Below are positions 31,535 through 48,019 of a DNA stretch of 64,000 nucleotides, piece by piece. Origin of the DNA: Bradyrhizobium diazoefficiens (GTDB lineage Bacteria > Pseudomonadota > Alphaproteobacteria > Rhizobiales > Xanthobacteraceae). The stretch lies in the NCBI RefSeq assembly GCF_016616425.1, contig NZ_CP067101.1, positions 5,208,001-5,272,000 on the forward strand. Reading direction: 5' to 3'. The first letter of the stretch is position 1; each line of letters begins with the position of its first letter. The notes beneath the pieces were generated by a model. That model worked only from the letters and a program-made list of their open reading frames with translations, was not told where the DNA came from and made no database searches. Position numbers and translations under genes: made by a program.

Positions 31535-33826
31535 TTAGCGGAGCAGCTGCAGCACGCTCTGCTGCGATTGGTTGGCCAGCGACAGCGCGGAGACCGCGAT
31601 CGACTGGCGGGTCGACAGCGCCTGGCTGTTCGCCGCTTCCTCGTTGGTGTCGGCCAGCGTCAGGTTGGACGAGCCGGTCTGCAGCACGTTGATCAGGTTC
31701 TTGGAGAAGTCCTGACGCACCTGCACGATCGAGAGATTCGAGCCGAGCGAGGAACCTTCCGAGCGCAGCGTGCTCGACGCCGCATTCAGACTGGCCAGCA
31801 CCCTGTTGGTTGCGCCGTTGTCGATGAAGTCGACGCCGTTGACGAGATTGCTGAGGCCAAGACCTGCCGCGTTGAACACCACGCCATTGATGCCGAGCGT
31901 GGAGCTGCCGGTCTCGTTGAAGACGAGCTTGAGCGTGTCGCCGTTGAGCAGGTTGACGCCGTTGAAGGAGGAGTCCTGCGACGTGGTATCGATCTGCGCC
32001 AGAATGTTGTTGAACTGGTTGACCAGGTTGGAGCGCGCGGTTTGTGCGACGGGATCCTGGACCGGGGGCTGCGCGGTGGTGAACGCCAGTACACCGGTGA
32101 TCGTGCCGCCGACTGTGCCGCCGGCGGCCGTCGAACCGAGCGTCGAGGAAGCGTATTCGTTGACGGTGGTCACCGTGAGCACGCCGTTGGCATCGATCGT
32201 CGCGGTCAGGTGGTTGGCCTGCAGCTGCGCGTTGAGCTGGTCCAGCGTCTTGACGGTGCCGTTGGTGCCGTCGCCGAAGGTGACGTTCACTGGCGTGCCG
32301 CCGTTGAAGGAGGTGAAGGTCAGCGTCTTGCCGCTGATGCCGCCGACGCCCGAGGTGCGCGCCGCGGTGAAGGCGGTCGCCGTTCCCGTGTTGCCGCTGA
32401 GGCCGAACGCGCTGAGGGCGTTGCCGGTGCCGGTGATCGAAAGATCGGCGTTGGTCCCGGTGGAGAGCGCAAGCTGACCGCTGCTGTTGACCGACGACGG
32501 GATCTGACCCGCAGTGGTCGACAGCGTCGCCGCACCGTTGAAGATGCTGGCCGTCTTCACGCCAGTGGCAAGGTCGATCGAGTTGAGCAGGTCGGTCAGC
32601 GTCGCGCTCTGGATATAGACGGTCGAGTTGCCGTTGCCGTCGGTGACGACGTTGCCGCTGACGCCATAGCCGGTGGCCACGCTCGCCGCCGATTGCGGCG
32701 TCTGCGCGTTCTTGAATGTGATGGTGTGGCCGTCGATGTTCAGCGTCGAGCCGTCCTGCACCAGGGTGCCCAGCGAGCCGGCGGTGGTCGAGCGGTTCGC
32801 GGTCACGCTCGCATTGCCTGCGCCGGTCGCCGCAGTCAGACCGAGCTTGTTGAGGAAGTCGGCCTTTCCGGTGACGCTCAGATCGGCACCGGTCGAGCTC
32901 TTCAGCGTAACGGCGCCCGCCGTGATGGAGGATGCCACCTGAAGCGTGCCGACTGGGCCGGCCGAACCGCTGACCGCGATGGTCGCCGCGCCTGCGCTGA
33001 TGGTCGCAGTCTTGACGCCGCTGGCGAGGTCGATCGCGCTGAGGACGTCGTTGATGGTCGCTCCGGGCGCAGCCGCCGTTCCCTCATAGACGATCGAATT
33101 GCCGTTGCCGTCGGTGGCGATGTGCCCGCTGGCGTCGAGACCCCAGCCGGTCGGCTGCGTGCTCGGGGCGATGCCGGTGCGGAAGGTGATGGTCTTGCCG
33201 TTCACGGTGATGATGTCGCCATCCGCGGGCGGCGTGCTGAAGGTCGTGGATGCCGTGGTGCCGAGCAGCGTAGCGGTGCCGGATAGTGCGGTGGTGCCGT
33301 CGGCGGCGTTCACTGCCGTGCCGGTGAAGGTGCCGGCGCTGGAGCCCAGCGAGGCGCCAAGTGCTGCAGTTCCCGTGACCGGGGTCACGCCGCCGGCCGC
33401 GCCGGTATAAAGCACGTTGCTCTTGGCGGTCGCGCTTGCATAGGAGGTCGTGCCGCGCAGGTCGGCGGGCGTGGCGCCGGGAATCGTGGTGGAGACGTTC
33501 GACTTGGTGGAGTAACCGACCGTGGTCTGCAGCGCCTGGTTGGCGATCGATTTCGCGCTGTCGATCAGCTTTTGCAGCGAGGTGATGCCGGTGTTGGCGG
33601 CCTGCAGCACCTGGACGCCGTTGTTGATGCCGTCGAGCAGGTTGCTGATGTCGCTCGCCCGGTTGTCCAGCCCCTGCGCGGTGAAGAAGTTGGTGGGATT
33701 GTCGAGCGCCGTATTGACCTTCTTGCCGGTCGACAGCCGCTCCTGCGTCGTGGCCAGCAAATCGGCCGTCGACTGCAGCGACAACAGGTTCTGGCGAACG
33801 GACGCCGAGAGAACGATGTTGGACAT
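31535..33826 (-). CDS. fliC: flagellin (copy 1)
   Basis: A 763-residue filament protein, far longer than standard 280-500-residue flagellins. The N-terminal D0/D1 (MSNIVLSASVRQNLLSLQST...LSTGKKVNTALDNPTNFFTAQGLDNRASDISNLLDGINNGVQVLQAA) and C-terminal D1/D0 (RSNLVNQFNNILAQIDTTSQDSSFNGVNLL...LQTGSSNLTLADTNEEAANSQALSTRQSIAVSALSLANQSQQSVLQLLR) are canonical. The centre contains two tandem ~120-residue modules seen also in FlgE and FlgL. This copy is the most diverged of the four and the only one with a perfect CtrA-type box upstream. Size and arrangement match the thick-flagellum flagellins of Bradyrhizobium. Confidence 0.96.
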   Translation of the reverse strand: MSNIVLSASVRQNLLSLQSTADLLATTQERLSTGKKVNTALDNPTNFFTAQGLDNRASDISNLLDGINNGVQVLQAANTGITSLQKLIDSAKSIANQALQTTVGYSTKSNVSTTIPGATPADLRGTTSYASATAKSNVLYTGAAGGVTPVTGTAALGASLGSSAGTFTGTAVNAADGTTALSGTATLLGTTASTTFSTPPADGDIITVNGKTITFRTGIAPSTQPTGWGLDASGHIATDGNGNSIVYEGTAAAPGATINDVLSAIDLASGVKTATISAGAATIAVSGSAGPVGTLQVASSITAGAVTLKSSTGADLSVTGKADFLNKLGLTAATGAGNASVTANRSTTAGSLGTLVQDGSTLNIDGHTITFKNAQTPQSAASVATGYGVSGNVVTDGNGNSTVYIQSATLTDLLNSIDLATGVKTASIFNGAATLSTTAGQIPSSVNSSGQLALSTGTNADLSITGTGNALSAFGLSGNTGTATAFTAARTSGVGGISGKTLTFTSFNGGTPVNVTFGDGTNGTVKTLDQLNAQLQANHLTATIDANGVLTVTTVNEYASSTLGSTAAGGTVGGTITGVLAFTTAQPPVQDPVAQTARSNLVNQFNNILAQIDTTSQDSSFNGVNLLNGDTLKLVFNETGSSTLGINGVVFNAAGLGLSNLVNGVDFIDNGATNRVLASLNAASSTLRSEGSSLGSNLSIVQVRQDFSKNLINVLQTGSSNLTLADTNEEAANSQALSTRQSIAVSALSLANQSQQSVLQLLR

Positions 33827-33920
33827 TGGCGAGTCTTCCTCTTGAACCGGATACGAATCGGCCGCGCGGTCTGCAAAGCGGGCCTTGGTCCAGTTTTAGG
33901 AGGTGTCCTTTAAAGTATGG

Positions 33921-33935
33921 TTAACGCCGGCTTAA
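33921..33935. promoter_or_regulatory. perfect CtrA-type box upstream of flagellin copy 1
   Basis: TTAA at 33921-33924, seven bases (CGCCGGC), TTAA at 33932-33935. It is 95-109 bp upstream of the start at 33826. Confidence 0.75.
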
Positions 33936-33988
33936 GCGACAGGGTTAATGGCCAGTGAACGCCCCTGCCCGCCTCCGGACGCAAAGAA

Positions 33989-34017
33989 GAGCGGCGGGGC
34001 AAAGGACCCCGCCGCTC
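33989..34017 (-). terminator. terminator of flagellin copy 2
   Basis: GAGCGGCGGGG at 33989-33999 pairs exactly with CCCCGCCGCTC at 34007-34017; on the minus strand it is followed by TTCTTTGCG and preceded by AAAACG, so it may work in both directions. Confidence 0.8.
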
Positions 34018-34042
34018 CGTTTTATCTAGTTATTTCAGTTTG

Positions 34043-36331
34043 TTAGCGGAGCAGCTGAAGCACGCTCTGCTGCGAGGTGTTGGCCAGCGACAGCGCCGAG
34101 ACCGCGATCGACTGACGGGTCGACAGCGCCTGGCTGTTGGCCGCCTCGACGTTGGTGTCGGCCAGGGTCAGGTTGGACGAGCCGGTCTGCAGCACGTTGA
34201 TCAGGTTCTTGTTGAAGTCCTGGCGGATCTGCACCACCGAGAGGTTCGAGCCGAGGCTCGAGGCTTCCGAGCGCAGCGTGCTCGACGCGGCGTTCAGGTT
34301 GGTCAGCACCCTGTTGGCGGCGGCATTGTCGATGAAGTCGACGCCGATGGTCAGGGAGGCGAGACCGAGACCCCTGGAGTTGTAGGTCACGCCGGTGATG
34401 TTCAGGCTCGACTTGCCGGTTTCGTCGAACACCAGCTTGAGCTGATCGCCGTTCAAGAGGTTGACGCCGTTGAACGAGGCGTCCTGCGAGGTGGTGTCGA
34501 TCTGGTTCAGGATGTTGTTGTACTGGGACACCAGGTTGGCACGCGCCGTCTGGGCAACCGCATCCTGGACGGGGTTGGAAGCCGTCGAGAAGGTCAGCGC
34601 GGAGGTGAGCGTGCCGCCGATTGCGCCGCCCGCTGCCGTCGAGCCGAGTGTCGAGGACGCATAGTCGTTGGACGCGCTGATGGTCAGCAGGCCATTGGCA
34701 TCGATCGTCGCGGCCAGGTTGTTGGCCTGAAGCTTGGTGTTGAGCTGATCGAGCGTCTTGATCGTGCCGTTGGTGCCGTCGCCGAAGGTGACGTTGACCG
34801 CCGTGCCGCCGTTGAAGGAGGAGAAGGTCAAGGTCTTGCCGGCGATGCCGCCGATGCCGGAGGTGCGTGCGGCGGTGAACGCCGTCGCGTTTCCGGTGTT
34901 GCCGGCGAGCCCGAACACGTTCAACGCATTGCCGGTGCCGGTGATCGACAGATCCGCGTTGATGCCGGTCGAGAGCTTGAGCTGGCCGGAGGCGTTGATC
35001 GACGAGATCGACTGACCTGTCGCGGTTGCAAGCGTCGCGGTGCCATTGGCATTGACCGTCGCGCTCTGCACGCCAGTAGCCAAGTCGATCGCCTTGAGCA
35101 CGTCGGCAACCGTGCCTGTCTGCAGATAGACGATCGAGTTGCCGTTGCCGTCGGTCAGGACGTTGCCGCTGGCACCAAAACCGCTCGGAACGCTCGGAGC
35201 ACCCGTCGAGCCCGGGATCGGCGCGTTCTTGAAGGTGATGACGTGGCCGTCGACGTTCAGCGTCGAGCCGTCCGCGATCGTCGCACCCAGCGAGGCCGCG
35301 GTCGTGGTTCGTTCGACGTTGATGGTGGCATTGCCTGCGCCGGTGGATGTCGTCAGGCCGAGCGCCTTGAGCAGGTCGGCCTTGCCCGTGACGCTCAGAT
35401 CCGCACCCGTCGAGCTCTTCAGCGTGACGGCACTCGAACCGACGCTCGACGCGGTCTGGTTGACGCTCGTGGCAATCGTCGCAGCACCCGCACTGATGGA
35501 CACTGTCTTGACGCCGCTGGCCAGATCGACTGCGGCCAAGAGATCGTCGACCGTCGCAAGCGTCGACGCCGTGGCGGTGTCGCCGAGATAGACGGTGGTA
35601 TTGCCGCTGCCGTCGGTGACGAGGTGGCCGCTGACGCCCGAACCGGACGGAACGGCGCTCGACGCCGGCGCCGTGCCGGCGCGGAAGGTGATGGTCTTGC
35701 CGTTCACGGTCAGCGTGTCGCCGTCCGAGGGCTGGGCAACGCCGGCCAGGCCGCTGGCGCTCGTGCCGTTGGTGGCGATCAGGGTGATGGTGCCGGTCAG
35801 GGCCGTGGTGCCGCCGGCACCGGTCGTTGCCGTGGTGCCCGTGAAGGAGCCGATGGTGGCGCCGAGCGTCGTGGTGCCGCTCGCCGCGGTGGTGCCGCCG
35901 GCCGTGCCGTTATACAGCACGTTGCTGCTCGCCGTGGCGCTGGCAAAGCTCGTCGTGCCACGCAGGTCGGCCGCCGTCGCACCGGAGATCGTGGTGGAGA
36001 CGTTGGATTTGGTGGAGTAGCCGACCGTGGTCTGCAGCGCCTGGTTGGCGATCGACTTGGCGCTGTCGATCAGCTTCTGCAGCGAGGTGATGCCGGTGTT
36101 GGCGGCCTGCAGCACCTGCACGCCGTTGGCGATGCCGTCGAGCAGATTGTTGATGTCGCTGGCGCGGTTGTCGAGCGACTGTGCCGTGAAGAAGTTGGTG
36201 GGATTGTCGAGAGCCGAGTTGACGCTCTTGCCAGTCGACAGACGATTCTGCGTGGTGGCGAGGAGGTCGGCGGTGGACTGGAGAGAGAGCAGGTTCTGAC
36301 GAACCGACGCAGAGAGAACGATACCGGACAT
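34043..36331 (-). CDS. fliC: flagellin (copy 2)
   Basis: A 762-residue flagellin with conserved ends (MSGIVLSASVRQNLLSLQST at the N-terminus, LANTSQQSVLQLLR at the C-terminus) and the same modular centre as copies 3 and 4. Roughly residues 62-258 are encoded by DNA that I find identical to copy 3 (35559-36144 against 38175-38760). Differences cluster in residues ~330-700. The ribosome binding region CCAGAAGGGTAA is shared with copies 3 and 4, and a motif conserved among these three lies 77 bp upstream of the start. A hairpin terminator follows the stop. Confidence 0.96.
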   Translation of the reverse strand: MSGIVLSASVRQNLLSLQSTADLLATTQNRLSTGKSVNSALDNPTNFFTAQSLDNRASDINNLLDGIANGVQVLQAANTGITSLQKLIDSAKSIANQALQTTVGYSTKSNVSTTISGATAADLRGTTSFASATASSNVLYNGTAGGTTAASGTTTLGATIGSFTGTTATTGAGGTTALTGTITLIATNGTSASGLAGVAQPSDGDTLTVNGKTITFRAGTAPASSAVPSGSGVSGHLVTDGSGNTTVYLGDTATASTLATVDDLLAAVDLASGVKTVSISAGAATIATSVNQTASSVGSSAVTLKSSTGADLSVTGKADLLKALGLTTSTGAGNATINVERTTTAASLGATIADGSTLNVDGHVITFKNAPIPGSTGAPSVPSGFGASGNVLTDGNGNSIVYLQTGTVADVLKAIDLATGVQSATVNANGTATLATATGQSISSINASGQLKLSTGINADLSITGTGNALNVFGLAGNTGNATAFTAARTSGIGGIAGKTLTFSSFNGGTAVNVTFGDGTNGTIKTLDQLNTKLQANNLAATIDANGLLTISASNDYASSTLGSTAAGGAIGGTLTSALTFSTASNPVQDAVAQTARANLVSQYNNILNQIDTTSQDASFNGVNLLNGDQLKLVFDETGKSSLNITGVTYNSRGLGLASLTIGVDFIDNAAANRVLTNLNAASSTLRSEASSLGSNLSVVQIRQDFNKNLINVLQTGSSNLTLADTNVEAANSQALSTRQSIAVSALSLANTSQQSVLQLLR

Positions 36332-36407
36332 GACTCTTACCCTTCTGGCTTACGCGTCTTCGTTCGATCGCTTCGGATCGAGTGACGGGGCCAGCGTGCC
36401 GCGACAT

Positions 36408-36426
36408 GGCTAACAAAGGATGAAAC
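36408..36426 (-). promoter_or_regulatory. conserved upstream motif of flagellin copy 2
   Basis: On the minus strand this reads GTTTCATCCTTTGTTAGCC. Related sequences occur before copies 3 and 4 at a similar distance. Inside it TTAGCCAT resembles a CtrA half-site, but the wider motif extends beyond that; its regulator is unknown. Confidence 0.5.
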
Positions 36427-36604
36427 GAACATCGCCCGTATAAGCGGCGGTTCACCATGAACGACTGAAAGAGCTTGCGGGGGCACACAATCGCTCTGAA
36501 ATCATTGGCGATTCCTGGCGCTTACGCTCCATTAACCATAACCGCTGGTTACTTTTTCGAGCGCCGCCTGCCCTCCCGGAAGCTCGAGCAGCGAGCAAAA
36601 AGAA

Positions 36605-36630
36605 AGCGGCGGGGCCGAGGCCCCGCCGCT
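36605..36630 (-). terminator. terminator of flagellin copy 3
   Basis: AGCGGCGGGGCC at 36605-36616 pairs exactly with GGCCCCGCCGCT at 36619-36630. On the minus strand TTCTTTTTGC follows, a good T tract. Confidence 0.85.
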
Positions 36631-36658
36631 GTAGTCGTCTTGCGATATCGTCCGCTTG

Positions 36659-38947
36659 TTAGCGGAGCAGTTGCAGCACGCTCTGCTGCGACTGGTTGGC
36701 CAGCGACAGCGCGGAGACTGCGATCGACTGCCGGGTCGACAGCGCCTGGCTGTTGGCCGCCTCGACGTTGGTGTCGGCCAGGGTCAGGTTGGACGAGCCG
36801 GTCTGCAGCACGTTGATCAGGTTCTTGTTGAAGTCCTGGCGAACCTGCACGATCGTCAGGTTCGAACCGAGGCTCGAAGCTTCCGAGCGCAGCGTGCTCG
36901 ACGCGGCGTTCAGGTTGGTCAGCACCTTGTTGGTGGCGGCGTTGTCGATGAAGTCGACACCGCCGGTCAGCGCAGCAAGGCCGAGACCCTTGGAGTTGTA
37001 GGTCACGCCCGTGATGCTCAGGTTCGACTTGCCGGTCTCGTCGAACACCAGCTTGAGCTGGTCGCCGTTCAGGAGGTTGACGCCGTTGAACGAGGAGTCC
37101 TGCGAGGTCGAGTCGATCTGGTTCAGGATGTTGTTGTACTGAGACACCAGGTTCGCACGCGAGGTCTGGGCAACCGTGTCCTGGACGGGGCTGGAAGCCG
37201 TCGAGAAGGTCAGCGCCGTCGTCAGCGTGCCGCCGATCGCACCGCCCGCGGCGCTCGATCCGATGGTCGAGGACGCGTAGTCGTTGGTGGTCGAGACCGT
37301 CAGCAGGCCATTGGCGTCGATCGTCGCGGTCAGGTTGTTGGCCTGAAGCTTGGTGTTGAGCTGATCGAGCGTCTTGACCGTGCCGTTGGTGCCGTCGCCG
37401 AAGGTGACATTGACCGCCGTGCCGCCGTTGAAGGAGCTGAAGGTCAAGGTCTTGCCTGTGAGACCGCCGACGCCGGAGGTGCGCGCCGCCGAGAACGCGG
37501 TCGCGGTCCCGGTGTTGCCGGCGAGCCCGAGCACGTTCAACGCATTGCCGGTGCCGGTGATCGACAGATCGGCATTGACGCCGGTCGAGATCTTGAGCTG
37601 GCCGGAGGCGTTGATCGACGAGGCGGTCTGACCCGATGCGGTTGCGAGCGTACCACCACCGCTGCCGTTCAGCGTGAAGGTCTGCACGCCGGTGGCGAAG
37701 TCGATCGCCTTCAGCACGTCGTTGACCGTGCCGCCCTGCAGATAGACGGTCGAGTTGCCGTTGCCGTCGGTCAGGACGTTGCCGCTGGCACCAAAACCGC
37801 TCGGAACGCTCGGAGCACCCGTCGAGCCCGGGATCGGCGCGTTCTTGAAGGTGATGACGTGGCCGTCGACGTTCAGCGTCGAACCGTCCGCAATCGTCGA
37901 CCCCAGCGAGGCCGCGCTCGTGGTCCGGTTAACGTTCACGGTGGCGTTGCCGCCGCCCACGGCCGTCGTCAGGCCGAGAGCCTTGAGCAGGTCGGCCTTG
38001 CCGGTGACGCTCAGATCCGCACCCGTCGAGCTCTTCAGCGTGACGGCACTCGAACCGACGCTCGAAGCGGTCTGGTTGACGCTCGTGGCAATCGTCGCAG
38101 CACCCGAACTGATGGACACTGTCTTGACGCCACTGGCCAGATCGACCGCGGCCAAAAGATCGTCGACCGTCGCGAGCGTCGACGCCGTGGCGGTGTCGCC
38201 GAGATAGACGGTGGTATTGCCGCTGCCGTCGGTGACGAGGTGGCCGCTGACGCCCGAACCGGACGGAACGGCGCTCGACGCCGGCGCCGTGCCGGCGCGG
38301 AAGGTGATGGTCTTGCCGTTCACGGTCAGCGTGTCGCCGTCCGAGGGCTGGGCAACGCCGGCCAGGCCGCTGGCGCTCGTGCCGTTGGTGGCGATCAGGG
38401 TGATGGTGCCGGTCAGGGCCGTGGTGCCGCCGGCACCGGTCGTTGCCGTGGTGCCCGTGAAGGAGCCGATGGTGGCGCCGAGCGTCGTGGTGCCGCTCGC
38501 CGCGGTGGTGCCGCCGGCCGTGCCGTTATACAGCACGTTGCTGCTCGCCGTGGCGCTGGCAAAGCTCGTCGTGCCACGCAGGTCGGCCGCCGTCGCACCG
38601 GAGATCGTGGTGGAGACGTTGGATTTGGTGGAGTAGCCGACCGTGGTCTGCAGCGCCTGGTTGGCGATCGACTTGGCGCTGTCGATCAGCTTCTGCAGCG
38701 AGGTGATGCCGGTGTTGGCGGCCTGCAGCACCTGCACGCCGTTGGCGATGCCGTCGAGCAAATTGTTGATGTCGCTGGCGCGGTTGTCGAGCGACTGGGC
38801 GGTGAAGAAGTTGGTGGGATTGTCCAGGGCCGAATTGACGCTCTTGCCGGTCGACAAACGGCTCTGCGTGGTGGCGAGAAGGTCGGCGGTGGACTGGAGG
38901 GAGAGCAGGTTCTGACGAACCGACGAGGAGAGAACGATACCGGACAT
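36659..38947 (-). CDS. fliC: flagellin (copy 3)
   Basis: A 762-residue flagellin. Residues 1-100 form D0/D1; two tandem modules occupy about 202-327 (DGDTLTVNGKTITF to LLKALGLTT) and 354-476 (GSTLNVDGHVITF to NVLGLAG), with a shorter degenerate third at 495-570; residues ~595-762 return to D1/D0. It shares long identical DNA with copies 2 and 4, and most of its sequence is closer to copy 4 than to copy 2 in the C-terminal half. The 3' gap of 29 bp to the hairpin and the 5' CCAGAAGGGTAA are like the other copies. Each copy appears to be its own transcription unit. Confidence 0.96.
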   Translation of the reverse strand: MSGIVLSSSVRQNLLSLQSTADLLATTQSRLSTGKSVNSALDNPTNFFTAQSLDNRASDINNLLDGIANGVQVLQAANTGITSLQKLIDSAKSIANQALQTTVGYSTKSNVSTTISGATAADLRGTTSFASATASSNVLYNGTAGGTTAASGTTTLGATIGSFTGTTATTGAGGTTALTGTITLIATNGTSASGLAGVAQPSDGDTLTVNGKTITFRAGTAPASSAVPSGSGVSGHLVTDGSGNTTVYLGDTATASTLATVDDLLAAVDLASGVKTVSISSGAATIATSVNQTASSVGSSAVTLKSSTGADLSVTGKADLLKALGLTTAVGGGNATVNVNRTTSAASLGSTIADGSTLNVDGHVITFKNAPIPGSTGAPSVPSGFGASGNVLTDGNGNSTVYLQGGTVNDVLKAIDFATGVQTFTLNGSGGGTLATASGQTASSINASGQLKISTGVNADLSITGTGNALNVLGLAGNTGTATAFSAARTSGVGGLTGKTLTFSSFNGGTAVNVTFGDGTNGTVKTLDQLNTKLQANNLTATIDANGLLTVSTTNDYASSTIGSSAAGGAIGGTLTTALTFSTASSPVQDTVAQTSRANLVSQYNNILNQIDSTSQDSSFNGVNLLNGDQLKLVFDETGKSNLSITGVTYNSKGLGLAALTGGVDFIDNAATNKVLTNLNAASSTLRSEASSLGSNLTIVQVRQDFNKNLINVLQTGSSNLTLADTNVEAANSQALSTRQSIAVSALSLANQSQQSVLQLLR

Positions 38948-39024
38948 TGAGTGTTACCCTTCTGGTACGCAACGCAACAAACTTCGATTAGGATTAATCG
39001 ATGGCCGGGACGGTGAACGTTGTG

Positions 39025-39043
39025 GGCTAACAAAGCATGAAGC
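39025..39043 (-). promoter_or_regulatory. conserved upstream motif of flagellin copy 3
   Basis: Minus strand: GCTTCATGCTTTGTTAGCC, 78 bp upstream of the start, nearly the same as the motif before copy 2. The flanks differ, which supports selection on this element. Confidence 0.5.
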
Positions 39044-39251
39044 GCGTGGCGCCAGTCCTTGCGCGGATTCACCATACGCGCGTTTGGAGCCGGAACGTGC
39101 TCGCCCATATCGTCATGATAGGATGATGCTTTTTCGTGCAGCGACGAGACGTTTGCGACTTGTCAACCATAACTCAGAGTAAGCAATTGGCTGTATCTGA
39201 AGGCATGGCCTCCACTCGCTGCACGGCACTCTGTTGCTGACGCAAAAAGAA

Positions 39252-39277
39252 GGCGGCGGGGCCGAAGCCCCGCCGCC
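39252..39277 (-). terminator. terminator of flagellin copy 4
   Basis: GGCGGCGGGGC at 39252-39262 pairs exactly with GCCCCGCCGCC at 39267-39277 around CGAA. On the minus strand TTCTTTTTGC follows. Confidence 0.85.
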
Positions 39278-39305
39278 GGATCTTGCTTGCTGTGTCTGCC
39301 GCTCG

Positions 39306-41594
39306 TTAGCGGAGCAGCTGCAGCACGCTCTGCTGCGACTGGTTGGCCAGCGACAGCGCGGAGACCGCGATCGACTGCCGGGTCGACAGCGCCTGGCTGT
39401 TGGCCGCCTCGGTGTTGGTGTCGGCCAGGGTCAGGTTGGCCGAACCGGTCTGCAGCACGTTGATCAGGCTCTTGTTGAAGTCCTGACGAACCTGCACCAC
39501 CGAGAGGTTCGAACCCAGAGCGGAGGCTTCCGAGCGCAGCGTGCTCGACGCGGCGTTCAAATTGGTCAGCACCTTGTTGGTGGCAGCGTTGTCGATGAAG
39601 TCGACACCGCTGGTCAGCGCGGCGAGACCGAGACCCTTGGAGTTGTAGGTCACGCCCGTGATGCTCAGGTTCGACTTGCCGGTCTCGTCGAACACCAGCT
39701 TGAGCTGGTCACCGTTCAACAGGTTGACACCGTTGAACGAGGAGTCCTGCGAGGTCGTGTCGATCTGGTTCAGGATGTTGTTGTACTGAGACACCAGGTT
39801 CGCACGCGAGGTCTGGGCAACCGTGTCCTGGACGGGGCTGGAAGCCGTCGAGAAGGTCAGTGCCGTCGTCAGCGTGCCGCCGATCGCACCACCCGCGGCG
39901 CTCGAACCGATGGTCGAGGACGCGTAGTCGTTGGTGGTGGAGACCGTCAGCAGGCCGTTGGCGTCGATCGTCGCGGTCAGGTTGTTGGCCTGAAGCTTGG
40001 TGTTGAGCTGATCGAGCGTCTTGACCGTGCCGTTGGTGCCGTCGCCAAACGTGACGTTGACTGCCGTGCCGCCGTTGAAGGAGGAGAAGGTCAAGGTCTT
40101 GCCGGTGATGCCACCGACGCCGGAGGTGCGCGCCGCCGAGAACGCGGTCGCGGTCCCAGTGTTGCCGGCGAGCCCGAGCACGTTCAACGCATTGCCGGTG
40201 CCGGTGATCGACAGATCGGCGTTGACGCCGGTCGAGATCTTGAGCTGGCCGGAGGCGTTGATCGACGAGGCGGTCTGACCCGATGCGGTTCCGAGCGTAC
40301 CACCACCGCTGCCGTTCAGCGTGAAGGTCTGCACGCCGGTGGCGAAGTCGATCGCCTTCAGCACGTCGTTGACCGTGCCGCCCTGCAGATAGACGGTCGA
40401 GTTGCCGTTGCCGTCGGTCAGGACGTTGCCGCTGGCACCAAAACCGCTCGGAACGCTCGGAGCACCGGTCGAGCCCGGGATCGGCGCGTTCTTGAAGGTG
40501 ATGACGTGGCCGTCGACGTTCAGCGTCGAACCGTCCGCAATCGTCGACCCCAGCGAGGCCGCGCTCGTGGTCCGGTTAACGTTCACGGTGGCGTTGCCGC
40601 CGCCCACGGCCGTCGTCAGACCGAGCGCCTTGAGCAGGTCGGCCTTGCCGGTGACGCTCAGATCCGCACCCGTCGAGCTCTTCAGCGTGACGGCACTCGA
40701 ACCGACGCTCGAAGCGGTCTGGTTGACGCTCGTGGCAATCGTCGCAGCACCCGAACTGATGGACACTGTCTTGACGCCACTGGCCAGATCGACCGCGGCC
40801 AAGAGATCGTCGACCGTCGCAAGCGTCGACGCCGTGGCGGTGTCGCCGAGATAGACGGTGGTATTGCCGCTGCCGTCGGTGACGAGGTGGCCGCTGACGC
40901 CCGAACCGGACGGAACGCCGGTCGCCGCCGGCGCCGTGCCGGCGCGGAAGGTGATGGTCTTGCCGTTCACGGTCAGCGTGTCGCCGTCCGAGGGCTGGGC
41001 AACGCCGGCCAGGCCGCTGGCGCTCGTGCCGTTGGTGGCGATCAGGGTGATGGTGCCGGTCAGGGCCGTGGTGCCGCCGGCACCGGTCGTTGCCGTGGTG
41101 CCCGTGAAGGAGCCGATAGTGGCGCCGAGCGTCGTGGTGCCGCTCGCCGCGGTGGTGCCGCCGGCCGTGCCGTTATACAGCACGTTGCTGCTCGCCGTGG
41201 CGCTGGCAAAGCTCGTCGTGCCGCGCAGGTCGGCCGCCGTCGCACCCGAGATCGTGGCGGAGACGTTGGATTTGGTGGAGTAGCCCACCGTGGTCTGCAG
41301 CGCCTGGTTGGCGATCGACTTGGCGCTGTCGATCAGCTTCTGCAGCGAGGTGATGCCGGTGTTGGCGGCTTGCAGCACCTGCACGCCGTTGGCGATGCCG
41401 TCGAGCAAATTGTTGATGTCGCTGGCGCGGTTGTCGAGCGACTGGGCGGTGAAGAAGTTGGTGGGATTGTCCAGGGCCGAGTTGACGCTCTTGCCGGTCG
41501 ACAGACGGTTCTGCGTGGTGGCGAGAAGGTCGGCGGTGGACTGGAGGGAGAGCAGGTTCTGACGAACCGACGAAGAGAGAACGATACCGGACAT
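39306..41594 (-). CDS. fliC: flagellin (copy 4)
   Basis: A 762-residue flagellin, very close to copy 3. The start is the ATG at 41594 (MSGIVLSSSVRQ); the frame is open 62 codons further upstream, but that part covers the leader with the CCAGAAAGGTAA ribosome binding region and the conserved promoter-like motif. Small differences from copy 3 lie at residues ~224-228 (ATGVP for SSAVP) and in the C-terminal D1 (TSGVDF, SALGSNLSVVQ, NKSLINVLQTGSANL). It is divergent from flbT, which begins 320 bp away. Confidence 0.96.
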   Translation of the reverse strand: MSGIVLSSSVRQNLLSLQSTADLLATTQNRLSTGKSVNSALDNPTNFFTAQSLDNRASDINNLLDGIANGVQVLQAANTGITSLQKLIDSAKSIANQALQTTVGYSTKSNVSATISGATAADLRGTTSFASATASSNVLYNGTAGGTTAASGTTTLGATIGSFTGTTATTGAGGTTALTGTITLIATNGTSASGLAGVAQPSDGDTLTVNGKTITFRAGTAPAATGVPSGSGVSGHLVTDGSGNTTVYLGDTATASTLATVDDLLAAVDLASGVKTVSISSGAATIATSVNQTASSVGSSAVTLKSSTGADLSVTGKADLLKALGLTTAVGGGNATVNVNRTTSAASLGSTIADGSTLNVDGHVITFKNAPIPGSTGAPSVPSGFGASGNVLTDGNGNSTVYLQGGTVNDVLKAIDFATGVQTFTLNGSGGGTLGTASGQTASSINASGQLKISTGVNADLSITGTGNALNVLGLAGNTGTATAFSAARTSGVGGITGKTLTFSSFNGGTAVNVTFGDGTNGTVKTLDQLNTKLQANNLTATIDANGLLTVSTTNDYASSTIGSSAAGGAIGGTLTTALTFSTASSPVQDTVAQTSRANLVSQYNNILNQIDTTSQDSSFNGVNLLNGDQLKLVFDETGKSNLSITGVTYNSKGLGLAALTSGVDFIDNAATNKVLTNLNAASSTLRSEASALGSNLSVVQVRQDFNKSLINVLQTGSANLTLADTNTEAANSQALSTRQSIAVSALSLANQSQQSVLQLLR

Positions 41595-41686
41595 GACTCT
41601 GTTACCTTTCTGGTAAACGACGCTACTGTTACACGTCTGCTTGGATCGAGCTTGACCCAGCGACCGGCGGACCGTGGCGCCGAGAC

Positions 41687-41705
41687 CTCTAACGAAACAT
41701 GAAAT
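41687..41705 (-). promoter_or_regulatory. conserved upstream motif of flagellin copy 4
   Basis: Minus strand: ATTTCATGTTTCGTTAGAG, 93 bp upstream of the start; the least conserved of the three. TTCAT, TTT and GTTAG are common to all. Confidence 0.4.
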
Positions 41706-41914
41706 GAAGCCCGTGCTTTTGCCGGGTCGCGCGTGATTCGGCCGGGGAAGCGCCGCGCATCCTTGCGCCGCCACACACATCCATCTTTGAAACTATTGGG
41801 CTTTTTGGCGCGAACGGCGTGAATTTACAACTCGTTAACTAGTTAGGAGCGAGAATCGCGCCCTGATAAGCCGCAACGAACGCTCGGTTACGAAAGCGTT
41901 GATGGAGAACAGGC

Positions 41915-42355
41915 ATGGCCCTCAAGGTCGAGCTCAGACCGCACGAACGCATCATCGTCGGTAACTGCGTGATTACCAACACGGACCAGCGCGCCCGCCT
42001 CCTGATCGACGGCGACAACGTGCCGATCCTGCGCGAGCGCGACATCCTCACGCCGGAGACCGCCGATACGCCAGCCAAGCTGGTCTATCTGGCGGTCCAG
42101 CTCATGTACATCTCGCCGGATCCGCAGACCCAGCACGGCACCTATTTCAACCTGGTGCGCGACATCGTCACCGCGGTGCCGAGCGCCTGGCCGATCATCG
42201 AGGCCATCAACAACAACATCCTGAACGGCGACCTCTACCGAGCGCTGAAGGACGCCCGTAAGCTGATCGCCTATGAAGAGAAGCTGCGGAGCCAATTCGA
42301 GGCCACCCATCCCAGGGCGGAAGCGGACAAGGACGACGTGAGCTCCGCCGCCTGA
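41915..42355 (+). CDS. flbT: flagellin biosynthesis repressor FlbT
   Basis: A 146-residue protein. The ATG at 41915 is preceded by GGAGAAC. MALKVELRPHERIIVGNCVITNTDQRARLLIDGDNVPILRERDIL is the strongly conserved FlbT N-terminus, followed by TPAKLVYLAVQLMYISPD and a helical C-terminus (YRALKDARKLIAYEEKL). FlbT binds the 5' leader of flagellin mRNA and destabilises it until the hook is built. It is the only plus-strand gene between flaF and flgE. Confidence 0.96.
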   Translation: MALKVELRPHERIIVGNCVITNTDQRARLLIDGDNVPILRERDILTPETADTPAKLVYLAVQLMYISPDPQTQHGTYFNLVRDIVTAVPSAWPIIEAINNNILNGDLYRALKDARKLIAYEEKLRSQFEATHPRAEADKDDVSSAA

Positions 42356-42457: not shown

Positions 42458-43957
42458 CTATTGCGCCGCGAGTGGCGGTGACTCGACTTCGATCACGCCG
42501 TCGCCGCTTCGCCGTCCGCCGAAGTCCAGCACGGCTGCGACCAGCGCATCGATGTCCGCCTCCTCGGTTCGGTGATTGACGATCGCGGCCCGGATCGCGA
42601 ACCTGCCGTCCAGCGTCGTGCTCGACGGCGCCGCGACGCCGGACTCCTGGATGTCGGCGACGATCTCGCGATTGACCGCGTCGTCGGCACGGTAACGGAA
42701 GCAGACGATGTTGAGATTGACCGGCGCCAGCAATTCCAGCCGCGGTTCAGCCAGTACGCGCCCTTCGAGATACTTCGCCAGCGCACAGCTCCTCGCGATC
42801 GTCGCACCCAGCCGGTCGGTGCCGAACGTCTTCAGCGTGAACCACGTCTTCAGCGCGCGGAAGCCGCGCGACAGATCGGGACCGAGATCGCACGGCCAGA
42901 CCGCCCCCGCCGCAAGCCCCCTCGCCTCGCGGCGCAGATAGGCCGCGGGCTGCGCAAAGGCCTGCCGATGCTGCTCACCGTCACGCACCAGCAGGAAGCC
43001 GGCATCGTAGGGCACCTGTCCCCATTTGTGGAAGTCGAGCGCGATGGAATCGGCGAGCTCGATGCCGCCGAGCAGCGGCGCGAGCTCGGGCGACAGAATC
43101 GCGAGCGCACCGAAAGCACCGTCGACATGAAACCAGATCTCCTCCTCGCGGCACAGCTCCGCGACCGCCATGAGGTCGTCGATCGCACCAATGTCGACCG
43201 TGCCGGCAGACGCGACGACCAGGAACGGCTTGAAGCCGACCTCGCGATCGATCACGATCTGCGCGCGCAGCGCGGCAATGTCGATGCGATGATCGGCATC
43301 GACCCCGATCTTGCGCAGCGCATCGGTGCCTAGCCCAGCGATGTCCATCGCCCTGGAAACGCAGCCATGCGCGGCTTGCGACGTATAGGCCGTGAGCAGC
43401 GCGCCGTCATTGCCGATGCCATGTTGCCGCGCCTGCGTGCCGAGCGCAGAGTTGCGCGCCACCAGCACCGCCATCAGATTGGCCATCGACGTGCCCGTGA
43501 CGAAGATGCCGCTCGCGCTGTCCGGAAAGCCGAACAGGCGGCGCATCCATTCGACGATCTGGCGCTCGACCTCGATGGGCATGTGGTCGCGGCCGCCGAG
43601 ATTGGCGTTGAGGCCCGCCGCGAGCATTTCCGCGAGCATGCCGACCGCGGTGCCGCCGCCATGCACCCAGCCCATGAAGCGGGGATGGACGTTGCCTGTC
43701 GCATACGGCGCGACGCGCTCGGCGAATTCGCGATAGACCTCGGCGAGGTCGCTCGCCTCGTGCGGCACGTCGGTCTTGAATGCCGAACGGACGCCATCGG
43801 GAATCGGCTGCCAGACGGGGCGCGCCCGAACGTTGGCGATGCCGTCGATAGCATCGTCGAGCATGCGATGAGCGAGCGCGCGAAATGCGGTCCAGTCCTG
43901 CGGGTCGAGCGAGGTGTGCGCAAGGGAGCTTCGCACGTTGCGGATGATCTCGTTCAT
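42458..43957 (-). CDS. PLP-dependent decarboxylase (group II, aromatic amino acid decarboxylase-like)
   Basis: A 499-residue fold-type I enzyme. PLP features are GIFVTGTSMANLMAV (residues 150-164, phosphate cup), AHGCVSRA with the ring-stacking His197, WFHVDGAFG with Asp279 contacting the pyridine nitrogen, and the Schiff-base Lys311 in ALDFHKWGQVPYDAG. The N-terminal HPRFMGWVHGGGTAVGMLAEMLAAGLNANLGG matches the group II decarboxylase lead. These enzymes decarboxylate aromatic or acidic amino acids such as Trp, Tyr, 2,4-diaminobutyrate or Glu; the substrate here is unknown. Its ATG overlaps the stop of the ATP-grasp gene (ATGA), so they are coupled. It is the last gene of an operon with a CtrA-type box. 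Confidence 0.88.
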   Translation of the reverse strand: MNEIIRNVRSSLAHTSLDPQDWTAFRALAHRMLDDAIDGIANVRARPVWQPIPDGVRSAFKTDVPHEASDLAEVYREFAERVAPYATGNVHPRFMGWVHGGGTAVGMLAEMLAAGLNANLGGRDHMPIEVERQIVEWMRRLFGFPDSASGIFVTGTSMANLMAVLVARNSALGTQARQHGIGNDGALLTAYTSQAAHGCVSRAMDIAGLGTDALRKIGVDADHRIDIAALRAQIVIDREVGFKPFLVVASAGTVDIGAIDDLMAVAELCREEEIWFHVDGAFGALAILSPELAPLLGGIELADSIALDFHKWGQVPYDAGFLLVRDGEQHRQAFAQPAAYLRREARGLAAGAVWPCDLGPDLSRGFRALKTWFTLKTFGTDRLGATIARSCALAKYLEGRVLAEPRLELLAPVNLNIVCFRYRADDAVNREIVADIQESGVAAPSSTTLDGRFAIRAAIVNHRTEEADIDALVAAVLDFGGRRSGDGVIEVESPPLAAQ

Positions 43958-45207
43958 GATGCACTCTCCTCGCCTGCTCTTGCATGCCGCGACAGCATCG
44001 CCGAGAACGCTGCAAAGATCTTGCGCATCTGCGGCGGCTTGTAAGGAAACACGACCGGCGAATCCATGTTGTGCACGACCGCGGTGTTGTCCGCCTCGAA
44101 GACCAGGAGTTCATTGTCCCGGTTCTCGGCGCAATCGACGATGAAGTAATCGAGACCGACCCGCCTGCTCATTTCGTCGAGCGCACTCTTGTGGCGCGCG
44201 GCGAAGGCATGATCGAAGTCGCGCATGAAGAGCGCCTCTTCCGCGCGCTTCTCCTCGCTGAACGCCATGTAGGCGTTGAGATACCAGATATCCCAACGCT
44301 CGGCGATCGCCATGTGGCAGGCGTAGGGCCTGCCGTCGACCATCGCGAGACGATATTTGCGGTAGAGCCCGTCGGGGCTGGCATAGTCGACGAAACGCGC
44401 AACGAAGAAATCCCGTTCGTCGCGCCCGGCAAGGTAGGCTGCGATCGCCGCCGCATCGTCGAGCTTCGCGAGCCCGACGCCGGCATGCGAGCCGCGCGGT
44501 CGCGCGATCATCGGAAAGCTCAATTCGTCCGCGATGTCCTGGCAAGCGATCTGCGCTCTCGACAGATCCGACAATTGCGCGCGCGTCGCGTGAATGGTCG
44601 CGGGAATGTCGAGGCCCGGCACGCCGGCCAGCAGCCGATGCAGCTTGTCGCGATCGAGGTTGCCGATGCGATCGGGACGATTGAGCAGCGGCCGCGGCCA
44701 GTGCGGCGCGGCCCTCTCGATCAAGGCGAGCGCCTCGCGGCATTCCTCGGAATCGGACGCGACCACGATGGCAACGTCGTGCTCGGGCAAGTTCGCCGGC
44801 AGACCGACGCCCTTGACCACGTAGAGCGTCAACAGCTCGATGTCGGAGCCTTCGAGCAGAAAGTCGATCGGCGTGTTGCCGCCCATGTCGATGTCGGCTG
44901 CCAGCGCGAGCACGCGCAAGACCGGCTTCGGAGCAGCGCTCGGCGTGCGAAACAATTGGTGGAAGGCCAGCACCTCCGACTGGATCGCAAGCCCCTGATC
45001 CTTGTCGCCGAGTAGCTGGGCGATCAACGACAGATCCAGCCCTTCACCCGCGAGCGCGGTCCCCGCCGCGATCCGCGCCACCAATTGCTCGCGCAACGGA
45101 TTCAGATCGACGCCTTCGAAGGCCCGGCGCGTCAGCTGCGCGAAGCCGATGCGATCGGCATAGTTCGCCGCGGTCGTGCCGATTGGCGCGGAAACCGGAT
45201 GCTGCAT
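43954..45207 (-). CDS. ATP-grasp-like protein of unknown substrate
   Basis: A 417-residue protein. The C-terminal ~220 residues have ATP-grasp features: FPMIARPRGSHAGVGLAKL (residues 231-249; the usual nucleotide-binding Lys position is an Arg in ARP), FFVARFVDYASPDGLYRKYRLAMVDGRPYACHMAIA as the central sheet, and a metal site YFIVDCAENRDNELLVFEADNTAVV with Asp358, Glu371 and Asn374. The N-terminal ~180 residues include a Rossmann-like stretch (VLRVLALAADIDMGGNTPIDFLL) but no known domain. I recall a very similar C-terminal domain fused to TPR repeats in other Bradyrhizobium proteins, also of unknown function. ATP-grasp enzymes usually make amide bonds from an acyl phosphate. The gene follows the glycosyltransferase gene by 77 bp. 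Confidence 0.75.
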   Translation of the reverse strand: MQHPVSAPIGTTAANYADRIGFAQLTRRAFEGVDLNPLREQLVARIAAGTALAGEGLDLSLIAQLLGDKDQGLAIQSEVLAFHQLFRTPSAAPKPVLRVLALAADIDMGGNTPIDFLLEGSDIELLTLYVVKGVGLPANLPEHDVAIVVASDSEECREALALIERAAPHWPRPLLNRPDRIGNLDRDKLHRLLAGVPGLDIPATIHATRAQLSDLSRAQIACQDIADELSFPMIARPRGSHAGVGLAKLDDAAAIAAYLAGRDERDFFVARFVDYASPDGLYRKYRLAMVDGRPYACHMAIAERWDIWYLNAYMAFSEEKRAEEALFMRDFDHAFAARHKSALDEMSRRVGLDYFIVDCAENRDNELLVFEADNTAVVHNMDSPVVFPYKPPQMRKIFAAFSAMLSRHARAGEESAS

Positions 45208-45284
45208 CTCACACCTCGAACGCGGAGTTTACCGGCGCGGCCGCGGCTGACGGACGGGATGCGCCGGTGCTCGTCCCGGACGGC

Positions 45285-46067
45285 TCACGCCGCATCGGCT
45301 GCCGCCGCGGGCACGGCTGCGAATTGCGAAGCAATGTCGCCATGGAACACCGACGGCCCGACGTGGTCGAGCGAGCTCTGGATGTCGGCCCAAATCTCGC
45401 CGCCGATGTCGGTCCAGCGCTTGCAGAAGGCGAAGTCCTCGGAGAGATATGTGCCGGTCGCTGGATCGATCATGCATTCGAACAGCGCAAACCGGTTCTG
45501 GCTCGCGACAAGCGCGTCGTGCGAATGCTCGCGGAAGAATTGCAGGCTCGCGTAGTTCGGATGCCGGCACATCGCCTCCAGCACGTGGCGTCGGATCATC
45601 AGGAATCCGGTGCCGGCATAACGTACGCGAGTAAATCCATTCACCACGACGATGCGATCGGGATCCTCGATCTCGAGAACATAGTCCAGCGAAGCTGCCG
45701 GCACGTCGGCCCGGCCCGACTGGATCGCCCGCGCGGCCTTGTCCCAGTTGACCCGCTTGATCGGATAGCAGCCGGCGACCACGTCCGCGCCGCATTCGAT
45801 CAGCCGGAACACCTGCTCCGGCTTGAAGCCGATATCGGCATCGATGAACAGGAAATGCGTCGCCTCGGGATCGTCCAGGAACATCGCGACCAGATTGGCC
45901 CGCGCGCGGGTGATCAGCGCGTCGCCATCCCGCAGCAGCACCTTGAGCCCGAGATTGGACATGCCGTGCACGGCGCGCTGCAGCGCGAAGATCGAGCTCG
46001 CATAGATGCTCGACACCTGCCCGCCGAAGCAGGGCGTTGCCACCACCACTTGTATCTTGTCCGACAT
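45285..46067 (-). CDS. glycosyltransferase-like protein with a DxD motif
   Basis: A 260-residue soluble protein that begins with KIQVVVATPCFGGQVSSIYASSIFALQRAV, the nucleotide-sugar-binding start of a GT-A fold. DxD (Asp76-Ala-Asp78) lies in THFLFIDADIGFKPEQVFRLI, the metal/nucleotide-sugar site, and GFTRVRYAGTGFLMIRRHVLEAM resembles the acceptor-side strand of Anp1/GT2-like enzymes. SEDFAFCKRWTDIGGEIWADI provides an acidic catalytic-base candidate (Glu-Asp). No membrane helix is seen. It is the first gene of a three-gene operon, with a perfect CtrA-type box 50 bp upstream, and lies directly downstream of flgL. Flagellin or hook glycosylation is a natural guess, not shown. Confidence 0.78.
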   Translation of the reverse strand: MSDKIQVVVATPCFGGQVSSIYASSIFALQRAVHGMSNLGLKVLLRDGDALITRARANLVAMFLDDPEATHFLFIDADIGFKPEQVFRLIECGADVVAGCYPIKRVNWDKAARAIQSGRADVPAASLDYVLEIEDPDRIVVVNGFTRVRYAGTGFLMIRRHVLEAMCRHPNYASLQFFREHSHDALVASQNRFALFECMIDPATGTYLSEDFAFCKRWTDIGGEIWADIQSSLDHVGPSVFHGDIASQFAAVPAAAADAA

Positions 46068-46116
46068 CGACAGCTCCGCCCCGCTCCAATCCTCACCAAG
46101 AGGTAAAGAGGCATGG

Positions 46117-46131
46117 TTAACGGCGCCTTAA
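46117..46131. promoter_or_regulatory. perfect CtrA-type box upstream of the glycosyltransferase operon
   Basis: TTAA at 46117-46120, seven bases (CGGCGCC), TTAA at 46128-46131. It ends 8 bp before the flgL stop codon on the minus strand and is 50-64 bp upstream of the glycosyltransferase start. Confidence 0.75.
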
Positions 46132-46138
46132 CGCGTCC

Positions 46139-48019
46139 TTACAGGAACTTGACGAGCGAGAGCTGCGCCAGGTTCGAGGTCACCTGGTAGGAGGCTTGGA
46201 GCGCGTTCTGCAGCGACAGGATCTCGCTCGCGACCTGGTCGGGCGAAGCCGATTCCGCCTGGTCGATGATGGTTTGGAGTTGCGCCTTGGCCTGGGTCTG
46301 GCGCGTGGAGGCATCCTTCATCGTGTTCTGAGCCATCGCGATGTCGGTCTGGATGTCCTCGATACGCTGCTGACCGGGCTGCTGGGTCAGCGCCTGCGTC
46401 ACCCGCAGGCTCAGCGCAGCGACCTGCCCGCCCGAATACTGCCCGGTCGGCGAGGTCGAGAACGTCCCGAACACCGCGATCGCCTGCAATTGCCGGCGGA
46501 TCGCGTCCTCGTTCGCCTGGGCGCCGTACTGCACCGTGACGGAATCGTCGACGCGCGCCATCGCAGTGGAGCGCGCCGAGCCGGGCCCGTCATTGCCCTG
46601 GTACCATTTCACGGTGCTGGCCGAACCGTTGACCAGCGTCGTCGCCGAGCTCGCCGGCGAGGAGCCGACGCGCAGCGGCGGCTGCGTGGCAGTCACGGGC
46701 GTCGCGCCGAAACCGAGCGAACCGAGCGCGCCGGTGTTGGAGCTGGTGACGCTCAGGCTCGCCGCATCGTCGATGTTGATCGTGATCGAACCGCCGTGGA
46801 CCGTCGAGGGCTTCGACGTCCCCGTGATCTGGTCGATCTTGCCGAGCAAGCTCTGGATGCTGTCGGTGACATTGAGCTGGTTGCCGGTCGCGCCCGATCC
46901 GACGAAGGTGAGCGTGGTGCCGTTGACCGTGATGGTGTCGCCGGCGACGAAACCCGGCGAGATCGAGTCCGAAGGGCTCGCGCCGGACAGCGCCGTCGCG
47001 CCGGTGACGGGCGCCGGCGGCGCCGCCTGGTTGTTGACCGGCGTGCCGATCGCAGAGCTTGCGGTGTTGAAGAAGTTGTCCCCGGCGACGATCGCGGAGG
47101 CCGCCACCAGCGAGGTGTTGGCGAGCTTCGCGATCGCCGTGTTCAGCGCCGTGTTGAGGTTCGTGGCAGTATTTGTTGGGTTGACGGGAGTGCTGGCATC
47201 GATCGCGAAGCTGCCGAGCGGCGTCGGCGTCGCCGTGGATGCGGTCAGGTCGATCTGCTCCGTGGTGCCGTCCGGCAGGGTGAACTGGATGCTCAGCTTG
47301 TCGCCGTTGCTGGGATTGTTCCCGTTGAGATCGACCGAGAACGACACCGGCGAGCCGCTCGGGCCGGTGACGGTCGCGCCCGTCAAGGTCGAGGAGACCG
47401 CCTTGATCTTGAGGCCGAACGGCGAGCCCGCGACGTCTTCCGACACCTGTATCGAGCTCGCCGTCGGCTGCGTCTGCACCAGACGACCCATGCCGTTGCC
47501 GAGGTCGGCGGCCTGCCGCTCCGCCATCACGGTCTTGAACCCCACCTGGGTCGTCGTGCCGTTGATGATGTCGCCGGCATCCGCGACCGACTGCGTGTTG
47601 ACCGCGGTTCCCGAGAACAGATAGCGGCTGCCCGACTGCGTGTTGAGCACGCCGACCATCGAGCCGAATTGGGCCGCGGCGGTGTTCTGCGCGATCGTCT
47701 GGCCGTTGACGTTGAGATCCTGGGCGGTGTTGGCCGAGCCGGTCTGCACCGTGCTGCGGATCGTCGTCAGCGACTGGAGCGCGGTATTGGCGAGGTTGAT
47801 GTTGACGTTGACGTTGGTGATCGTGTCGGTATAGGCGGCGATGTTGGAGAGCTGCGCGCGCCCGGCGATCGCAAAGCCCTCGTTGGTGCCCATCCCGGAA
47901 TAGTTCTGCGACAGCTTGCCGGTCGAGAGCTGCGTCGACAGGTCGGTGAGCTGCTGATTGATGTTGCGGATCTGCGAGCCGAGAACCGACGAGGAGTAGT
48001 TGATGCTGTTGATCGACAT
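46139..48019 (-). CDS. flgL: hook-filament junction protein FlgL, enlarged
   Basis: A 626-residue protein, about twice the size of enterobacterial FlgL. The N-terminal D0/D1 (SINYSSSVLGSQIRNINQQLTDLSTQLSTGKLSQNYSGMG) and C-terminal (RIEDIQTDIAMAQNTMKDASTRQTQAKAQLQTIIDQAESASPDQVASEILSLQNALQASYQVTSNLAQLSLVKFL) are FlgL-like. Residues 336-442 are an inserted module with GDTITVNGTTLTF, NVTDSIQSLLGKID and SLSVTSSNTGALGSLGF, closely similar to one in FlgE. It is 21 bp after flgK and caps the flgE-flgK-flgL operon. Confidence 0.94.
   Translation of the reverse strand: MSINSINYSSSVLGSQIRNINQQLTDLSTQLSTGKLSQNYSGMGTNEGFAIAGRAQLSNIAAYTDTITNVNVNINLANTALQSLTTIRSTVQTGSANTAQDLNVNGQTIAQNTAAAQFGSMVGVLNTQSGSRYLFSGTAVNTQSVADAGDIINGTTTQVGFKTVMAERQAADLGNGMGRLVQTQPTASSIQVSEDVAGSPFGLKIKAVSSTLTGATVTGPSGSPVSFSVDLNGNNPSNGDKLSIQFTLPDGTTEQIDLTASTATPTPLGSFAIDASTPVNPTNTATNLNTALNTAIAKLANTSLVAASAIVAGDNFFNTASSAIGTPVNNQAAPPAPVTGATALSGASPSDSISPGFVAGDTITVNGTTLTFVGSGATGNQLNVTDSIQSLLGKIDQITGTSKPSTVHGGSITINIDDAASLSVTSSNTGALGSLGFGATPVTATQPPLRVGSSPASSATTLVNGSASTVKWYQGNDGPGSARSTAMARVDDSVTVQYGAQANEDAIRRQLQAIAVFGTFSTSPTGQYSGGQVAALSLRVTQALTQQPGQQRIEDIQTDIAMAQNTMKDASTRQTQAKAQLQTIIDQAESASPDQVASEILSLQNALQASYQVTSNLAQLSLVKFL

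Follow-up and report, generated by a model that had tools for sequence, protein, structure and literature searches.

A glycosyltransferase, ATP-grasp ligase and decarboxylase gene run beside the flagellin genes of Bradyrhizobium diazoefficiens, with a deletion scar and a candidate role in flagellar modification

The DNA analysed here, referred to as the window, is a stretch of 64,000 nucleotides from Bradyrhizobium diazoefficiens (contig NZ_CP067101.1) that carries a run of three genes within a flagellar locus. The run lies on the minus strand, between flgL upstream (46139..48019, minus strand) and the convergent flbT (41915-42355, plus strand, PF07378). Its first gene, termed GT (46067-45285), encodes a GT-A-fold glycosyltransferase-like protein of 260 amino acids (aa) with the motif FIDADIGF, and is followed by AG (45207-43954), an ATP-grasp ligase of 417 aa, and DC (43957-42458), a group II pyridoxal phosphate (PLP) decarboxylase of 499 aa with a lysine in the motif DFHKW. 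GT and AG are 77 bp apart and AG and DC overlap by ATGA, so that the run is present with its spacing and flanks as given in a preliminary description of this DNA. That description also took the three genes as a complete operon, an idea that was dropped once a fourth gene, PX, was found in relatives and its scar was recognised in the window; the Bradyrhizobium run normally consists of four genes. The gene content, co-localisation, predicted folds of AG and GT, selection and scar were all computed in the present work.

PX is a gene of about 540–550 aa located between GT and AG in Bradyrhizobium, with PLP-enzyme-like motifs but no clear family. In genome G024 (locus L028) the GT–AG space is 1.64 kb and is occupied by PX, versus 77 bp in the window. 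When the window sequence is translated from an ATG overlapping with the stop of GT, it gives MRREPSGTSTGASRPSAAAAPVNSAFEV, with a stop one base ahead of the AG start. In the relative L087 the intact PX starts with MRRERSGMSAGASRPS and finishes with VAAVPVNSAFEV. Both ends match the scar, which therefore represents an in-frame deletion that removed almost all of PX. Judged by these matching ends, the 77-bp gap is a remnant of the deleted gene, 28 codons plus a stop (45209..45295, minus strand), in which MRREPSGTSTGASRPS is fused to AAAAPVNSAFEV. No other copy of PX was found in the genome of the window, where only residues 2-56 of the query matched, at the end of GT plus the scar. Relatives of PX were found in loci L029, L030, L031, L039 and L040, and the conserved motifs of the protein are GTD, DACQ and TGSK. 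Profile matches came from one of 16 members each, namely Aminotran_5 (0.31), ADH_zinc_N (1.5e-4) and NifS (0.088). Two origins were considered and rejected: kinship of PX with DC, for which hhalign gave no match, and a viral origin, as a single scan of viral contigs with the L040 PX as query returned no relative.

AG is present in 95 of 146 Bradyrhizobium genomes, and synteny was compared in 62 of these (60 genomes together with G024 and that of the window). The order flgL-GT-PX-AG-DC beside flbT and flagellins is found in the 62 loci with few exceptions, so that across the genus the genes do keep together beside flgL and the flagellins, a comparison that the preliminary description had proposed. 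PX is in the run at 53 of the 62 loci, where intact denotes tblastn coverage of over 430 residues at this place rather than a frame-by-frame check, and is absent from this place at nine, an absence that refers to the locus only for genomes other than that of the window. On the best tree the presence and absence of PX takes eight state changes, seven of which are forced by well-supported branches, although this is a quick tree and the changes may include gains in the L141-L146 clade. The window, L093, L131 and L132 are judged to be losses of PX from remnants with differing ends. Natural PX-plus and PX-minus strains open the role of PX to direct testing. A different arrangement was seen in L142 and L143, where the order is AG-GT-AG-DC, with two copies of AG around GT and no PX.

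In the window the three remaining genes are still under purifying selection, as estimated from the sequence comparisons. Between the window and two PX-bearing relatives omega is 0.06-0.09 for GT, 0.15-0.16 for AG and 0.16 for DC, versus 0.07-0.09, 0.12-0.14 and 0.11-0.12, respectively, for PX-bearing pairs near the window; intact PX itself gives 0.21-0.25. Only fragments of GT are found in G262, G278, G326 and G380, all of which are Bradyrhizobium genomes that retain AG, so that this gene, too, may occasionally be lost.

The enzyme assignments of the preliminary description are upheld for all three proteins, for AG and GT through their predicted folds and for DC through Pfam. DC matches PF00282 over residues 54-423 (E 1.3e-64), and the PLP lysine K311 of the DFHKW motif is invariant in the eight rows of alignment A4, which places DC among the group II PLP decarboxylases. 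Its nearest solved structures are 4obu and the DOPA decarboxylase 7xin. Whilst DC resembles the aromatic amino acid and diaminobutyrate decarboxylases of this group, it differs in scoring under every NCBIfam equivalog cut-off listed. The structure of AG, predicted from a 23-sequence alignment, has an ATP-grasp fold in which a RimK/LysX/ArgX-like catalytic part (about residues 95-410) follows a helical N-terminal part. RimK, ArgX and LysX are its best structural matches, with matched rows that cover residues 93-416, and they act on protein substrates (RpsF and LysW appear in the entry titles of 5zk6, 3vpb and 5k2m). AG differs from these enzymes in its low identity (14-21% by structural alignment), in the extra N-terminal helical part and in its gene context. 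The window AG matches no Pfam family even at E 1 and scores 14 bits with the curated RimK-family NCBIfam model, for which 143 are required. One of 23 AG members gives a weak TPR_7 match (0.099), and it is by way of distant relatives that the N-terminal part can be called tetratricopeptide repeat (TPR)-like. GT, modelled from a 20-sequence alignment, has a predicted GT-A fold with a DxD-type motif, in which D76 is invariant and D78 nearly so (alignment A1). The structural neighbours of GT include protein glycosyltransferases, and the GT-A fold is also common to polysaccharide synthases.

Outside the genus, AG is found in 10 of 61 genomes of a family sample and in 17 of 190 of a class sample, some of the latter matches being no more than distant TPR-ATP-grasp relatives. 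In named genomes at least 560 AG relatives were confirmed, the best 80 of which are referred to here as the named loci. These belong mostly to the Alpha-, Beta- and Gammaproteobacteria, as assigned in part from record titles, plus a few oddly titled metagenome-assembled genomes (MAGs), and two of them, L192 and L249, coincide with the contigs of L039 and L040 in title, length and coordinates. The gene order in the named loci is mostly DC-AG-PX, reversed relative to Bradyrhizobium, with examples in Sulfuriferula, Sulfuricella, Gallionella, Methylobacter, Undibacterium, Variovorax and Cupriavidus. Among loci with room beside AG, DC is present in 63 of 73, PX in 53 of 76 and both in 48 of 70 (56 with both in all). 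The occurrence of the same three families in two gene orders argues for a shared function of PX, AG and DC. Neither DC nor PX stands beside AG in six named loci with two-sided room, for example in Allochromatium, and the Duganella and Janthinobacterium loci have DC and no PX. GT gave no match in any of the 80 named loci and is hence placed outside the core, which by these searches consists of PX, AG and DC without this GT outside Bradyrhizobium. The class-level relatives of GT itself lie in neighbourhoods mostly without identified genes. In L176 a relative of GT lies near the fliC, fliD and fliS families, with no AG, DC or PX match in the stretch; by its gene neighbourhood this is a second flagellum-side occurrence of the GT family.

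Of the 69 named loci that span 9 kb or more, 28 have flagellar families near AG, and 25 of these have at least two. Such families also occur at 4 of the 14 family and class loci (L028-L041). Among the control loci they were found in none of 13 with distant TPR-ATP-grasp genes and in 3 of 19 with GT only. Shorter loci were left out (11 of 80, 2 of 15 and 1 of 20 of the named, distant and GT-only sets). The queries for these counts were families first noticed as recurring in those 80 loci, together with window proteins, and the controls were searched with identical queries, to which they may be less sensitive. A flagellar family is found at 21 of the 56 DC-AG-PX loci. The recurring neighbours are FlaG, FliS, FliD, a short FlhB-like protein, FliK, flagellin and a YcgR-like protein, which by family mostly represent the filament gene group. 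Some of the Beta- and Gammaproteobacterial loci thus share the flagellar neighbourhood that the preliminary description had stressed, and in Alphaproteobacteria other than Bradyrhizobium the loci L030, L034 and L039 adjoin flagellins and flbT.

The run is preceded by a CtrA-type box, TTAAGGCGCCGTTAA (46131-46117, minus strand), which is located just past the flgL stop (46139) and is separated by 49 bases from the first ATG of GT. TTAA-N7-TTAA boxes occur six times in the window versus none in 100 shuffles. Across Bradyrhizobium the box is perfect in 54 of 58 loci and has a single mismatch in the remaining four; the 58 are those of the 62 loci in which GT is present and its start could be located. 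The first base of the box is 58-66 bp ahead of the GT start in the 54 perfect loci, and 63-66 bp in 53 of them. A perfect box that opens the run, as previously described, is thus confirmed; its TTAA-N7-TTAA form ahead of the first gene is that of a CtrA-regulon site and suggests that the cassette is under CtrA control. At the other end of the run a terminator-like hairpin is found at 42446-42408 (minus strand). The earlier term 'strong terminator' suits its stem, with a folding energy of -32.5 kcal/mol (z -5.37), better than its short tail of four U, and a simple consensus terminator scanner did not report it.

On the reading that we prefer, with slightly better than an even chance, the window carries a three-gene form derived from a conserved PX/AG/DC biosynthetic cassette for modifying flagellar filament proteins. 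The neighbourhoods support the flagellar link, and we infer the substrates, the order of the steps, the flagellin target and the timing by CtrA as follows. DC would convert an amino acid to an amine by decarboxylation. AG would activate a carboxylate as an acyl phosphate and join it to the DC amine or to an amino acid, where the carboxylate may belong to a flagellin side chain or to a sugar acid or glycan. PX, putatively a PLP-type-I-like enzyme, would supply or tailor the amino donor as an optional step, and in Bradyrhizobium GT would add a sugar. Expression may be timed with that of the flagellar genes by CtrA. The deletion of PX would consequently leave this strain with a simpler product.

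Flagellin decorations known so far are mostly sugars and methyl groups. A cassette in which a decarboxylase is joined by a RimK-like ligase and a PLP-like protein of no clear family, and which adjoins filament genes in part of its loci in three proteobacterial classes, would indicate a different chemistry on the flagella of plant-associated and soil bacteria. Flagellar modification loci as such are a known kind, and this gene set is apparently unstudied: a search by title and abstract, with subscription journals mostly uncovered, found no paper on the PX/AG/DC/GT set, although work on ATP-grasp amidoligases may describe AG relatives. Two papers, PMC6406911 and PMC4875605, have no bearing on it in their accessible text. 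The logic of the modification would have analogues in the Sfm operon and FlmG. In Shewanella oneidensis, loss of the ATP-grasp gene sfmE from sfmABCDE shifts the flagellin mass and lowers spreading (PMC3765264). Sfm likewise is an operon whose products are predicted to be cytoplasmic and include an ATP-grasp protein (SfmE, 412 aa), likened to AG by description, whereas its other genes encode a NeuB-like protein, a thiamine pyrophosphate enzyme, a reductase and a methyltransferase, and the words 'decarboxylase' and 'pyridoxal' are absent from the accessible text (PMC3765264). FlmG of Caulobacter is a CtrA-controlled flagellin modifier with a TPR domain that binds flagellin (PMC7591256). It has an alphaproteobacterial host in common with the cassette and would share with it cytoplasmic flagellin modification under CtrA control, but differs in taking pseudaminic acid, for which a NeuB enzyme is needed, as its donor and in having a TPR-glycosyltransferase protein as transferase (PMC7591256). 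The named loci contain, in 10 of 80 cases (L201, L252, L254 and L269 among them), a cluster of TPR proteins, of which one scanned member has a weak glycosyltransferase family 9 match; these proteins may resemble FlmG-type transferases.

Several observations weigh against a role of the cassette in filament modification. AG is lacking from 51 of the 146 Bradyrhizobium genomes, and at 2 of the 62 loci GT is not beside AG and DC. No flagellar family is found in 41 of the 69 named loci or in 10 of the 14 family and class loci, and the linkage is therefore partial. A flagellin gene was detected in 50 of 51 AG-bearing genomes (38 from named loci and 13 others, some with AG but without DC or PX), a count in which G138 and G788, with identical matches, are one genome taken twice and one match is below the family cut-off; the only genome without flagellin is G781, a MAG titled Klebsiella. 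The baseline of 169 of 200 in a phylum sample is so high that this test has little power and the 50 of 51 says little. DUF1522 flagellins accompany AG in Bradyrhizobium, in 74 of 95 genomes with AG versus 14 of 51 without (p 5e-9, with genomes without a match taken as the remainder of the 146), an association that is suggestive only as the statistics ignore ancestry. Finally, some AG relatives adjoin putative chemoreceptor genes, here methyl-accepting chemotaxis proteins, in L031 (5590-7509), L032, L033, L035 and L036; in the last four DC and PX were looked for beside AG and not found. These neighbours hint that some AG copies may function in connection with chemotaxis, and chemoreceptor matches occur in 5 of the 80 named loci.

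The chemoreceptor neighbours and the many loci without visible flagellar genes would fit a cassette that makes a free small molecule, such as an amide or peptide-like amine acting as signal or chemoeffector, which is co-regulated with motility and leaves flagellar proteins unmodified. Decarboxylase and ATP-grasp logic serves, for example, the synthesis of methanofuran. We consider this possible though rather improbable, as loci from three classes place the cassette amid filament genes and the best structural matches of AG are protein-substrate enzymes. There is little probability that the genes serve a capsule or cell-surface polysaccharide and owe their flagellar position only to operon history. 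The fold of GT and the mostly unidentified neighbours of its extra-cassette relatives are compatible with this, but PX, AG and DC mostly occur without this GT outside Bradyrhizobium, and the CtrA-type box is almost always perfect. That the operon of this strain has been degrading since PX was lost and is no longer functional is equally improbable. PX has been cut to its remnant, GT is fragmented in strains such as G326 and G262, and the omega values of AG and DC in the window slightly exceed those of PX-bearing pairs, which indicates that both are slightly less constrained, not free; yet all three genes remain at 0.06-0.16, with no internal stops, and the box and hairpin are retained.

A wider version of the filament-modification reading, which must be considered doubtful, is that of an undescribed and widespread proteobacterial flagellar modification, in which the TPR-like front of AG would recruit flagellin and the enzyme would attach the DC amine by an amide bond. 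PX would here be a switchable tailoring step, the repeated loss of which diversifies the flagellar surfaces of strains.

The candidate substrates in the window are four long flagellin genes (31535..41780, minus strand). Three of these were scanned and each contains PF00669, PF00700 and two DUF1522 stretches, whilst the fourth (36659-38947) was assigned by similarity and length. At about 762 aa the window flagellins are of unusual length, which is due to the DUF1522 inserts. In B. diazoefficiens the subpolar flagellins, bll5843-bll5846, have a size of 68 kDa (PMC4823718), and glycosylation of the subpolar flagellum appears as speculation only in the accessible text of a review (PMC8429497). Two overlapping TTAA-N7-TTAA boxes (33910-33935) are located just upstream of the flagellin gene 31535-33826. 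The flgL reading frame, which has no Pfam match at a threshold of 0.001, was named by position and synteny. A tblastn match of FlgL falls between the N-terminal matches of FlgE and FlgK, which suggests that FlgL has an insert domain in common with FlgE.

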